DNA of 64,000 nucleotides from positions 1-64,000 of the forward strand of contig NZ_QPKJ02000004.1 in the NCBI RefSeq assembly GCF_003344625.1. The letters are read 5' to 3'. The notes under the pieces were generated by a model. The model did no database searches, was not told the DNA's origin, and was given only the letters and a program-made list of their open reading frames with translations. The DNA is from Solirubrobacter deserti. Lineage in GTDB: Bacteria > Actinomycetota > Thermoleophilia > Solirubrobacterales > Solirubrobacteraceae. Positions 10,127 to 14,174 of the stretch are shown piece after piece; within the stretch, counting starts at the first letter, position 1; the number at the start of each line of letters is the position of its first letter. The translations under genes and the position numbers were made by a program.

Positions 10127-11314
10127 ATGGGAGCGGCCCCGGGGGCGGGGATCGCTCAAGTTACGTCCCGAAGGACTAGAGGGTTGGGCACCAAGACCGA
10201 CGCATTGCTGGTGGACGAGGCTCCGATCAGCGAGATCGACGAGCTGAAGCCGCTCATCGCCGAAGGCCAGGAACGGGGGATCCTGACCGTCGAGCAGATC
10301 GCCACTTCACTGGAAGAGGTGGAGGTCACCAAGGAGCAGATCGCAGAGCTTCACGCGTACCTGCTGGACCAGGGGATCGAGATCGTCACGGCCGATGGCA
10401 AGCCGGTGACCAACTCGGAGCCCGAGGCGCGCCGGGAGAAGGATGCTCCCGAGGGTGCCCGCAAGCCCGAGATCGACCTCACGGTCGAGCCCAGCCTGGA
10501 TTCGCTGCGGCTCTACCTGCGCTCGATCGGCAAGGTGCAGTTGCTCACGGCCGACCGCGAGGTCGAGCTGGCGCGGCGCATCGAGCGCGGCGACCTCGTC
10601 GCCAAGCAGGAGATGGTCGAGGCCAACCTGCGCCTCGTCGTCTCGATCGCCAAGGGCTATCTCGGCCGCGGCCTGTCGTTCCTGGACCTGATCCAGGAGG
10701 GCTCGCTGGGCCTCATCCGCGCGGTGGAGAAGTTCGACTACCGCCGCGGCTACAAGTTCTCGACGTACGCCACCTGGTGGATCCGTCAGGCCGTCACGCG
10801 CGCGATCGCGGACAAGGGCCGGACCATCCGCATCCCGGTGCACATGGTCGAGAAGCTCAACAAGGTGGTGCACGTCGAGCGCCAGCTCGTCCAGCAGCTC
10901 GGCCGCGAGCCGCTGCCGGAGGAGATCGCGAACGAGCTGGAATGCTCGGTGCGCGAGGTGCGCGACATCCTGCGCATGGCCCAGCAGCCCGTCTCGCTCG
11001 AGAAGCCGATCGGCGAGGAAGAGGAATCCGAGCTGGGCGACTTCGTCGAGGACGAGGCCGCCGAGTCGCCCTTCGAGGTGGCCTCGGAGAACCTGCGCAA
11101 GGAGAACGTGCGGCGGGCGCTGGACGCGCTTCCGCAGCGCGAGCGCGAAGTCATCGAGATGCGCTTCGGCCTCACCGGCGCGCGTCCGTACACGCTGGAG
11201 GAGGTCGGGCGGGCGTTCAACGTCACGCGCGAGCGCATCCGGCAGATCGAGAACCACACGCTCAAGAAGCTCGAGTCGCTCCCCGAGGCCCAGCGCCTCC
11301 GCGACGCGACCTGA
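10127..11314 (+). CDS. sigA: Primary RNA polymerase sigma factor (RpoD/SigA)
   Basis: 395 residues with the full set of group 1 regions: region 1.1-like N-terminus ([22 protein letters not shown]), region 1.2 ([16 protein letters not shown]), region 2 with the -10 recognition helix ([26 protein letters not shown]), region 3, and region 4 helix-turn-helix ([21 protein letters not shown]). ATG 10127 gives the longest form; TTG 10184, with AAGGA about 8 nt upstream and protein LGTKTDALL, is a strong alternative. The 229 bp upstream (9898-10126) holds no gene and should carry the promoter, but I see no convincing -35/-10 pair. Confidence 0.97.
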
Positions 11315-11336: not shown

Positions 11337-11969
11337 CTACGCCGCGGCTCGCACCGCCACCGCCTTCGAGTCGAAGCTGACCGCGCGGACCAGCCGGCGG
11401 CGCTCGAACAGATACACCGACCACACCTCGCCCGCGCCGGTGAAGTGCACGAGCACGTGCTCGCCGATGGACTCGACTCGCACGGGCTGCGGCACCGGCC
11501 CGCCCGGCGGCCGCTCGGCCAGGAACGCCCGCAGCTCATGCGTCCCGCGCAGCACGCGGCCCTCGGCGATGCGCGGGATCCACTCGACGTCGTCCGGGAT
11601 CAGCTCGGCGAGCGCGTCCACACCGCCGCGCACGTACGCCGCGCACAGATCCCGCACGTAGGCCACGTTGTCGGCGGTCTCCTTGTCGCGCCGCGCGCCG
11701 TCGGCGAGCGCGCGCCCGCAGCGGGCGCAGCGGAACCCGACGACGCTCGCCGCCCCGTCCCAGCGGCAGTCCCACACCAGCCCGAGCCGGCGGATGATCA
11801 CGTCGTAGCCGACGGCGACGTCCTCGCCGAAGCGCTCGCGATAGAGGTCCAGCAGCGCCGCCGAGGTCAGGACCGCGTGGTGGGTCCGGCGGGTCGTGTC
11901 GTCGAACGCCGGGTCGGGCCCGCTCACGACGGCCCACGGGGGATACGCAGCGTCCGACCTTCGCGCCAT
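11337..11969 (-). CDS. SnoaL/NTF2-like domain protein with N-terminal Cys-containing segment
   Basis: 210 residues. The C-terminal half (VRDLCAAYVRGGVDALAELIPDDVEWIPR...) has the pattern of SnoaL-like/NTF2-fold proteins, small cones that bind or isomerise hydrophobic ligands. The N-terminal part has DCRWDG...FRCARCGRAL, which resembles a short metal-binding ribbon. It converges with sigA, 22 bp away. The specific function is unknown. Confidence 0.72.
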   Translation of the reverse strand: MARRSDAAYPPWAVVSGPDPAFDDTTRRTHHAVLTSAALLDLYRERFGEDVAVGYDVIIRRLGLVWDCRWDGAASVVGFRCARCGRALADGARRDKETADNVAYVRDLCAAYVRGGVDALAELIPDDVEWIPRIAEGRVLRGTHELRAFLAERPPGGPVPQPVRVESIGEHVLVHFTGAGEVWSVYLFERRRLVRAVSFDSKAVAVRAAA

Positions 11970-11982
11970 CGCTGGAAAAAGG

Positions 11983-12702
11983 CTAGAGCCGCTCGCGGAT
12001 CTCCGTCCACAAGTCGGCGTATGCGCGCGCGGCCCGGCTGCGCGGCGCGAAGTCGACCAGCGCGGCCCGTTCAGCGCCCATGCGCTCGACGTCCGCCGAA
12101 TTCGGGATCACCGTCTCGAGCACGTCGTGCTCGCGCCCCAGCTCCTCCATCAGCTCGCGGTGCAGCTTCTTGCGCCGGTCGGCCATCGAGAAGAAGCCGA
12201 GCACCTTGGCGTCGCTGTTGAGCACCTCGTGCAGCTGGTCGAGCGTCCGCGAGCTGAGCGTCGCCGGGATGATCGGGACCAGCAGCGCGTCGGCCGCCTC
12301 GAAGACGTTCTCGGACACGAGGCTGATGCTCGGCGGACAGTCGAGGAAGACGTAGCGGTACTCGCTGAGCGGCTTGATGACGCGGTCGAGGCGGTTGGTC
12401 TTGGCGCCGTCGAGCGCCAGGTCCATGTGGCGGTAGGAGAAGTCCGCGGGCAGCAGGTCCAGGCCCTCGGTGTCGGTGCCCTTGATCTGGCCGTCGGCGT
12501 CCGTCTTGCCGCGCACGAGCTTCGCGCCGCCGCCCTTGATCTTGGGCTTGACGCGGAACAGGTACGTGCTCGCGCCCTGGGGATCGAGGTCCCACAGCAG
12601 CGTCTGGTCGCCGCCGTGGGCGGCGAGCGTCGCGAGGTTGACCGCGGCCGACGTCTTGCCGACGCCGCCCTTGATGTTGTACGTCGCCAGGACCTGGCTC
12701 AC
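11983..12702 (-). CDS. ParA-family ATPase coupled to CYTH-CHAD gene
   Basis: A 239-residue ParA/MinD-superfamily ATPase. The deviant Walker A motif NIKGGVGKTS (residues 9-18) includes the signature Lys; LLWDLDPQGAST is the A' motif and YVFLDCPPS the Walker B. Start GTG 12702 overlaps the TGA of the CYTH-CHAD gene (GTGA, 12702-12699), so translation is coupled. No ParB or parS-like gene is nearby, so this is an orphan ParA that more likely positions a protein or granule cargo than a chromosome. The partner and cargo are inferred. The same frame extends upstream to 13167 but only as antisense of CHAD codons. Confidence 0.93.
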   Translation of the reverse strand: MSQVLATYNIKGGVGKTSAAVNLATLAAHGGDQTLLWDLDPQGASTYLFRVKPKIKGGGAKLVRGKTDADGQIKGTDTEGLDLLPADFSYRHMDLALDGAKTNRLDRVIKPLSEYRYVFLDCPPSISLVSENVFEAADALLVPIIPATLSSRTLDQLHEVLNSDAKVLGFFSMADRRKKLHRELMEELGREHDVLETVIPNSADVERMGAERAALVDFAPRSRAARAYADLWTEIRERL

Positions 12703-14174
12703 CCGAAGTGCTCCTTGACGACGTCGCGCTGCGCCTTCGACGCGAAGACCGCGAACCGGTCGGCGAACTCGGCCCGCGCCGCGATCTCCTCCTGCATGAA
12801 GCGCTCGATCAGCACGCCCATGGCCATCAGCGTGAACGGATGCCCCTTGACCGCAGGCGCCAGGTCGCGCAGCGCGTTGGCCTGCACCTCGCGGTCCTGG
12901 AAGCGGCCGAGCTGGTCCTGCAGGCCCTTGAGCGTCTTCACGAACGGCTTGACGATCTCCGGCGGGTACAGGCTGGCGAAGAACTCGAGCAGGTAGCGCA
13001 GCTCCTTGCCGACCTTGCGCAACTCGTGCAGGTCGTAGGCGGGCGAGTCGTCGTCGATCGCCCGGCCCATCTTGACCATCTTGCGGTAGACCCGCGTGAT
13101 CCGGTGCGACGCGAGGTCGGAGACCGTGCGGTCGGACGGGCGGCGGCTCGTGACGAACTCGTTCCACTCGGCGAGCGCGTCGCCCGTGCGCTGCGCGCGC
13201 AGGGCCCGGCGCGTGGCCGTGAGCGCCTTGACCCGGCGCTGTTCGAGCACGTCGCGCAGCGGGTCCAGGTCGGCGCGCATCTTCTCCGGCAGCGAGTCGC
13301 GCAGCTCGGGGAAGTCGAGCAGGTAGACGTCGAGGTCGCGCAGGTCGCCGGTCACGGCCTGCAGGCGCTTGAACTCGTCGCGGAAGTGCTGCAGGCGCTC
13401 GGGGTAGACGCCCTTGAACTGGCGCTGCAGGCTGCGCGTGCGGCGGATGGCGACGCGCAGGTCGTGCAGGAACTCGGAGTCGACGTCGTCGAGCGTGCCG
13501 GGCAGGTTGAGGTCGATCACCTCGAGCAGGCGGCCGAATACAGTCGCCGCGGCGAGGCTGGCGGGCTCGTCCGGGTCCAGCGTGAGCGCGAGCTTGGAGC
13601 TCGTGCCCGCGGGGTCGCCGCCGGCGGCCGCGATCGCCTCGTCGACGAGCGGGACCGTCGCCTCCGGCAGCGCGAGCGTCTCGGCCAGCGTGGCGCGGAC
13701 GCGCTCGATCTCGGCCTCGTAGCCGCGCACCGCGGTGGCGGTGACGCGCCCGCGGGTGCCGTTGTCGGCGGTGGTCAGCTCCAGCCGGACCACCGTCTTG
13801 GCGTCCCCGTTGAGCACGGCGAGCGGCAGCCGGTGGGTGCGGACCTTCGCCACCGGCAGCAGCGCGCGCATCTCCATCTCGGGTGCGAGCCGGGCGCGCA
13901 GCGCCTCGGGCAGGTCGCGGTCGAACAGGCGCTTGGCGGCGGGTGCGGCGGCGCTGGCGAGCGTCGCGCCGGTCTCCCGGTCGAGCAGGACCAGCTCCGT
14001 GCCGCTGTGGCGCAGCGTCAAACCGGCCGCGTGCAGGCGGCCGTCGAACGTGTCGTAGAAGGTCGTCGTCCCGCTCGTCGCGCGGTCCGCGCGCACGTCG
14101 AGATGCTCGGCCAGCGAGGCCTTCGCCGAGGGCAGGTCGGCCCCCTCCGGTAACACGTGAGTAACAACTTCCAT
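12699..14174 (-). CDS. CYTH-CHAD domain protein
   Basis: 491 residues. Residues 1-200 form a CYTH-like triphosphate-tunnel domain (MEVVTHVLPEG..., TTFYDTFDGRLHAAGLTLR, MEMRALLPVAKVRTHRLP). Residues 215-490 form a CHAD alpha-helical domain with the conserved basic helices FLHDLRVAIRRTRSLQRQF and YDLHELRKVGKELRYLLEFF. CHAD domains bind polyphosphate and localise to polyphosphate granules in studied bacteria. ATG 14174 is chosen because codons further upstream are of poor quality. The gene is first in a two-gene operon with the ParA ATPase. The 214 bp to the divergent 14389 gene should hold both promoters. Confidence 0.93.
   Translation of the reverse strand: MEVVTHVLPEGADLPSAKASLAEHLDVRADRATSGTTTFYDTFDGRLHAAGLTLRHSGTELVLLDRETGATLASAAAPAAKRLFDRDLPEALRARLAPEMEMRALLPVAKVRTHRLPLAVLNGDAKTVVRLELTTADNGTRGRVTATAVRGYEAEIERVRATLAETLALPEATVPLVDEAIAAAGGDPAGTSSKLALTLDPDEPASLAAATVFGRLLEVIDLNLPGTLDDVDSEFLHDLRVAIRRTRSLQRQFKGVYPERLQHFRDEFKRLQAVTGDLRDLDVYLLDFPELRDSLPEKMRADLDPLRDVLEQRRVKALTATRRALRAQRTGDALAEWNEFVTSRRPSDRTVSDLASHRITRVYRKMVKMGRAIDDDSPAYDLHELRKVGKELRYLLEFFASLYPPEIVKPFVKTLKGLQDQLGRFQDREVQANALRDLAPAVKGHPFTLMAMGVLIERFMQEEIAARAEFADRFAVFASKAQRDVVKEHFG

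Follow-up and report, generated by a model that had tools for sequence, protein, structure and literature searches.

Proteins of the CHAD family are known for gripping polyphosphate (polyP), and in the ParA/MinD family of ATPases the McdA/McdB system positions carboxysomes. In regard to the placement of polyP granules, the accessible part of a 2025 review gives in its Table 1 a sole positioning factor, AlgP, marks the spacing component with a question mark, treats ATP dependence as unknown and describes the Caulobacter positioning proteins as unidentified (PMC13052382). AlgP of Pseudomonas aeruginosa is, according to the accessible text of the sources, a histone-H1-like DNA-binding protein and not an ATPase (PMC9239181, PMC13052382). 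A proposal of ParA-driven polyP positioning was not found in the accessible parts of the open-licence literature searched, and the main text of PMC10241942, as far as accessible, contains neither 'polyphosphate' nor 'CHAD'. Here we describe a gene pair from Solirubrobacter deserti, located within a 64,000-nucleotide stretch of contig NZ_QPKJ02000004.1 (the window), which encodes a CHAD protein and a ParA-family ATPase. The pair probably represents a cargo-positioning module for polyP granules, in which CHAD would mark the granule and ParA would space or partition it; we put the probability of this at roughly 0.6.

Several described systems resemble parts of this locus. The ParA of the window is 18% identical to McdA and has a CHAD protein as a partner instead of McdB, and its cargo would be an inorganic polymer granule, polyP, instead of the carboxysome. 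Chromosomal ParABS (Soj/Spo0J) differs in that the present ParA has no adjacent ParB, belongs to a separate clade, and carries changes in the partner loop and at two DNA-contact positions. Compared with CHAD phosins such as CtCHAD (6qv7/6qva), the CHAD domain is here fused to a TTM-fold domain whose strand 1 lacks ExExK and is genetically coupled to ParA. The initial annotation knew of no described system of this pairing, which holds only in regard to function: a folD-ppk-parA-CHAD cluster, with parA near a CYTH-CHAD gene and ppk, has been printed for Acidithiobacillus (PMC10892726, PMC6416229). The likeness lies in the gene neighbourhood, and in the accessible text of these papers CYTH is read as an adenylyl cyclase and ParA as a plasmid or chromosome partition protein, with no positioning role proposed. 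The features of the pair are as follows:

12699..14174, minus strand: CHAD gene (P0002), ATG start, 491-amino-acid pseudo-CYTH/CHAD protein with a Pfam CHAD match (E 7e-53 over residues 214-436)
13605..14174, minus strand: N-terminal domain, residues 1-190, predicted CYTH/TTM fold, strand 1 without ExExK
12702..13601, minus strand: CHAD domain, residues 192-491, with polyP-binding residues H237, R240, R244, R279, R393 and Y394
12699..12702, minus strand: GTGA stop/start overlap of 4 nucleotides, ParA GTG (12702-12700) over CHAD TGA (12701-12699)
11983..12702, minus strand: ParA-family ATPase gene (P0001), 239 amino acids, CHAD-linked ParA clade, Pfam AAA_31 match (E 5e-27)
12652..12672, minus strand: deviant Walker A KGGVGKT, ParA residues 11-17
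12526..12555, minus strand: ParA residues 50-59, a basic loop specific to the family, placed where HpParA has its ParB-docking loop L23

Both the overlap of the ParA start with the CHAD stop and the intact deviant Walker A motif are thus as initially annotated, and the GTGA overlap suggests that the two genes are translationally coupled. The adjacency, whose conservation outside this strain was one of two points on which the initial reading hung, extends far beyond S. deserti. Among 112 distinct loci of ParA relatives (pooled and deduplicated, without five duplicates and without L163, which has no CHAD), a CHAD gene lies directly upstream on the same strand in 95, and 66 of these show the same 4-nucleotide overlap as the window, with start codons, and hence overlap lengths, set by rule. 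As three of the 17 loci without CHAD (L078, L116 and L151) are situated at contig edges, 95 of 109 testable loci hold the pair. L075, among the 112, encodes a ParA identical to that of the window. The control, 26 loci of other ParAs, held no CHAD within 1.5 kb, and such a conserved adjacency makes a chance pairing very unlikely.

A clear ParA orthologue (E-value 2e-79 at most, followed by the next match at 9e-28) was present in 8 of 41 relatives, the window's genome included, with CHAD immediately upstream in all eight. Among the matches listed, the closest named ParAs are those of S. deserti (100% identity) and S. pauli (93%). Furthermore, a scan of genome contigs returned at least 575 ParA relatives, and in the best 80 CHAD was directly upstream on the same strand in 72 (L151, with a CHAD remnant at its contig edge, counts here as 'with' and in the 95 of 112 as 'without'). 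Record titles among these 80 include Solirubrobacterales, Acidimicrobiia, Geodermatophilaceae, Sedimenticola, Nitrosomonas, Thiodiazotropha, SAR324, Deltaproteobacteria and Acidobacteria, and CHAD-linked loci are labelled as Actinomycetota, Gamma- and Deltaproteobacteria, SAR324, Acidobacteria and others, where labels of metagenome-assembled genomes are record titles and may be wrong. The family (E 1e-60) is sparsely distributed: it occurs in 25 of 185 genomes sampled from the class of Nitrosomonas marina, 18 of them with CHAD, and in 10 of 296 sampled from the window's phylum, 7 with CHAD (centre genomes included, and class and phylum names of the samples being our own assignment). No other neighbour was as widespread across the 80 loci, clusters overlapping the pair being excluded; the next most widespread clusters, of which only representatives were scanned, were those represented by an ABC transporter (10 loci), a peptidase M1 (8) and a sigma-70 factor (7).

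Where the adjacency is missing, a CHAD match is often found elsewhere in the genome. The 14 such genomes searched held a separate CHAD in 11 cases (one a weak fragment) and none in three. With the linked-family model, the separate CHADs of L225-L230 give E-values of 2e-83 or lower, and five of the six have a long N-terminal part, while the best unlinked CHADs of relatives reach E 1e-63; in Acidobacteria Mor1 the distance between the separate CHAD domain and a ppk domain is 2.7 kb. An apparent CHAD-ParA fusion (P0102) was rejected, since its CHAD end is out of frame, as judged by eye, and it looks like a frameshift or an assembly fault. Two plasmid matches are uninformative, the one from Halomonas being unannotated and at the record edge, and the one from Pontibacter showing no CHAD, with ParA at the record edge.

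The ATPase itself seems intact and distinct from partition proteins. Residues K11, K16, D40 and D121 are invariant in 46 aligned family members and have a frequency of 1.0 in 113. The predicted model has the ParA/Soj fold and, like the sequence, is Soj-like, which together with the presence of Paracoccus relatives (42-45% identity) on plasmids would fit an ordinary chromosome- or plasmid-partition ParA standing beside CHAD by happenstance. That explanation was rejected and is strongly disfavoured, as a ParA-ParB locus exists elsewhere in the genome (C200:312274-313369), the family constitutes a clade apart, CHAD adjacency spans phyla, and no ParB occurs among the 10 neighbour genes scanned in the window. 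In the tree (FastTree, midpoint-rooted, deep support 0.84-0.88, Paracoccus ParAs left out), 113 family members and 26 other ParAs, not all proven chromosomal and not one clade, are placed on opposite sides of a split supported by 0.88. The ParA therefore does not group with chromosomal ParA, being split from the genome's own ParB-linked ParA and from 25 others. Family members without CHAD partly form a basal group and are partly scattered. The S. deserti genome holds five ParA-like matches, one CHAD match and one PPK1-domain match, the last on a contig other than the window's, and its three ParB_N matches (E 0.001) are confined to contigs C200 and C416, the window being on C378, so the description of an orphan ParA stands.

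The CHAD half carries the link to polyP. All six residues that bind polyP in CtCHAD are invariant in 92 of 92 linked CHADs (91 full-length proteins and that of the window). On the other hand, of the name 'CYTH-CHAD' given initially, the second half is borne out by Pfam, while the first can be retained only as a predicted fold. At E 0.01, the Pfam CYTH model fails to match any of the 46 family members scanned, whereas the N-terminal domain adopts the CYTH/TTM tunnel fold in the predicted structure of the CHAD protein (predicted local distance difference test, pLDDT, 95.4). In 88 of 92 proteins, including that of the window, no ExEx[KR] motif occurs ahead of D41, where strand 1 lies. The pattern occurs anywhere before residue 195 in 14 of 92, among them the window's EMEMR near residue 100, and basic residues R103, K126, R130 and R150 are retained. 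Unlinked CYTH-CHADs of L047, L049, L224 and L231 carry the motif in their N-terminal part, a thin control as most other unlinked CHADs lack it too, many being short or CHAD-only frames. Judged by these motifs, the CYTH half appears to be a degenerate one, mostly without the catalytic ExExK signature.

Genes of polyP metabolism adjoin a minority of the loci. Eight of the 112 loci have a ppk gene close to the module, always on the same strand. About 0.36 would be expected if ppk occurred once per 4 Mb and the loci were independent, an independence which relatedness violates. The ppk gene directly precedes CHAD-ParA in L094, L115, L141 and L222, directly precedes a ParA without CHAD in L209, and lies 5 to 12 kb away in L194, L197 and L070. 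In L071, L094, L115, L207 and L222 the gene after ParA is a free-standing CYTH (four of the five confirmed by Pfam), and a phoU-like gene is near three loci. Likewise, CHAD-ParA-CYTH-NUDIX is present on four Paracoccus plasmid records, in one of them 1.5 kb from pstB-phoU-phoB. All 15 genomes with a family ParA that were selected among the 80 (CHAD being adjacent in 14) have a PPK1 domain, compared with 7 of 14 control genomes. The polyphosphate link of the initial annotation is thereby strengthened, by the invariant polyP residues, the ppk beside some loci, and the Paracoccus CYTH/NUDIX and phoU/phoB neighbours.

Some individual loci are worth describing in their own right. On Paracoccus marcusii plasmid pCP157_03 (L241, 1-7246), pstB-phoU-phoB is followed by CHAD-ParA-CYTH-NUDIX-CYTH, possibly a portable phosphate/polyP island, and in Paracoccus liaowanqingii (L243, 3998-4764) the ATPase gene of the CHAD-ParA operon is annotated as two pieces. 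A homologous group of genes lies near the pair in L094, L109, L115, L128, L133 and L143, and its scanned member, in L109, holds histidine-phosphatase and NUDIX domains. In L209 (4853-7673, genome G215), PPK1 is directly upstream of a basal family ParA without adjacent CHAD, and the only CHAD match of that genome is a weak fragment; this could possibly be an older PPK-ParA arrangement.

According to the positioning reading, the CHAD half would localise the protein by gripping the granule surface, and the TTM-fold N-terminal domain would have been kept as a phosphate-binding or adaptor domain. ParA would alternate between two states, one a dimer that binds ATP and sits on a matrix, for which the nucleoid is the likeliest candidate, the other released from it. 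Binding of the granule-associated CHAD protein, or of the polyP that it carries, to the partner loops of ParA would stimulate ATP hydrolysis, and as a consequence granules would be held apart and divided between daughter cells, as McdA/McdB does with carboxysomes. The module spans phyla with only two genes and would provide a named, testable and energy-dependent candidate for polyP granule positioning; if true, polyP would join the cargoes of the ParA/MinD family, and numerous ParAs at present labelled BcsQ or chromosome partitioning protein in the sources would gain a likely partner.

A family-specific basic loop could be the site of such docking. Its motif, R50-x-K52-x-K54-x-K56-G-G, has three to four basic residues at positions 50, 52, 54 and 56 in most of the family, namely 87 of 96 members with linked CHAD and 11 of 17 members lacking it; of the 26 other ParAs, 23 have none. 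By our own mapping, an ungapped numbering from the catalytic Asp, it falls at the position of loop L23 of HpParA, which, according to the accessible part of the source, clamps the N-terminal peptide of ParB (PMC11229316). A speculative, rather unlikely version of the positioning reading would be that polyP on the granule itself docks on ParA through this loop and triggers or attracts it, with CHAD as the presenting coat. The ParB-peptide clamp loop would then have become a basic motif, next to a TTM domain of the polyP-cutting type that seemingly does not cut. If true, such a ParA would read its cargo from an inorganic polymer instead of a protein peptide, across several phyla.

Several observations weigh against the positioning reading, and the initial interpretation is, as a whole, partly supported. 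In the accessible part of the source, R195, R221 and R224 are given as DNA-contact residues of CcParA (PMC7229837). Mapped to the window's ParA by alignment and residue spacing, the first is kept (R177, 94% of the family), whereas the other two correspond to N201 and D204. Basic residues occupy these two positions in 0% and 3% of family members, respectively, as against 92% and 96% among the 26 other ParAs; K178 (99%) and R212 (96%) are new basic positions. With two canonical contacts replaced, the nucleoid as the matrix of ParA is not secured. The family is net basic (mean charge +5.4, the 26 other ParAs averaging -8.8), but the ParA of the window carries a net charge of -3. Inspection by eye of 23 CHAD-protein N-termini revealed no shared ParB-like basic peptide, and the predicted structures are single-chain models, hence blind to the ParA-CHAD interface. 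Adjacent CHAD is missing from 17 of 112 ParAs (three at contig edges) and likewise from L163, and CHAD is absent altogether from three of the 14 searched genomes without adjacency, while a fourth has just a weak fragment. Nearby ppk is limited to 8 of 112 loci (one at 12 kb), with none in the window's stretch, and the open-licence literature searched held no experiment on localisation, ATPase activity or interaction.

The main rival to positioning, improbable but to be taken seriously, is that ParA acts as a regulatory ATPase of polyP metabolism, switching or scaffolding PPK/CHAD on ATP status without moving granules. ParA-like regulatory ATPases include BcsQ for cellulose and FleN for flagella. 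The arrangement in L209, the ppk-CHAD-ParA groups with CYTH and NUDIX genes in L094, L115 and L222, and the partial loss of canonical DNA-contact residues would all suit such a role. Less probable still is a passive tether of granules or polyP to the nucleoid by CHAD and ParA, with ATP state controlling attachment only. AlgP and PhaM are DNA-binding granule proteins in the accessible part of the review (PMC13052382) and the family is net basic, but a plain tether would not need an intact ATPase site, and the window's ParA is itself acidic. It is very improbable that this CHAD subfamily binds another polyanion or cargo, such as nucleic acid or an envelope polymer, which ParA then positions: CtCHAD also binds heparin and polyP genes adjoin only a minority of loci, yet the six mutationally tested polyP residues are invariant, ppk is enriched near the module, and the two CHADs tested bound no ssDNA or RNA, as far as the accessible text reports (PMC6537752).

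Next to the pair, the window also holds a sigma-70 gene in convergent orientation, a gene for a SnoaL-like protein and, oriented divergently, a BtrH_N gene. Carboxysome genes were absent from the 10 neighbours scanned, McdB itself not being searched for in the genome. The SnoaL-like gene (11337-11969), 13 nucleotides after ParA, was rejected as a third operon member, as a search of loci L065-L074 of the relatives at E 1e-10 did not recover it, and is perhaps a strain-specific insertion. The sigma-70 factor (10127-11314, regions 1.1 to 4) is convergent with the CHAD-ParA pair. In L065-L068, a convergent sigma-70 gene lies directly after ParA or within about 100 nucleotides of it, and the same gene adjoins the pair in the five other genomes of the genus examined.
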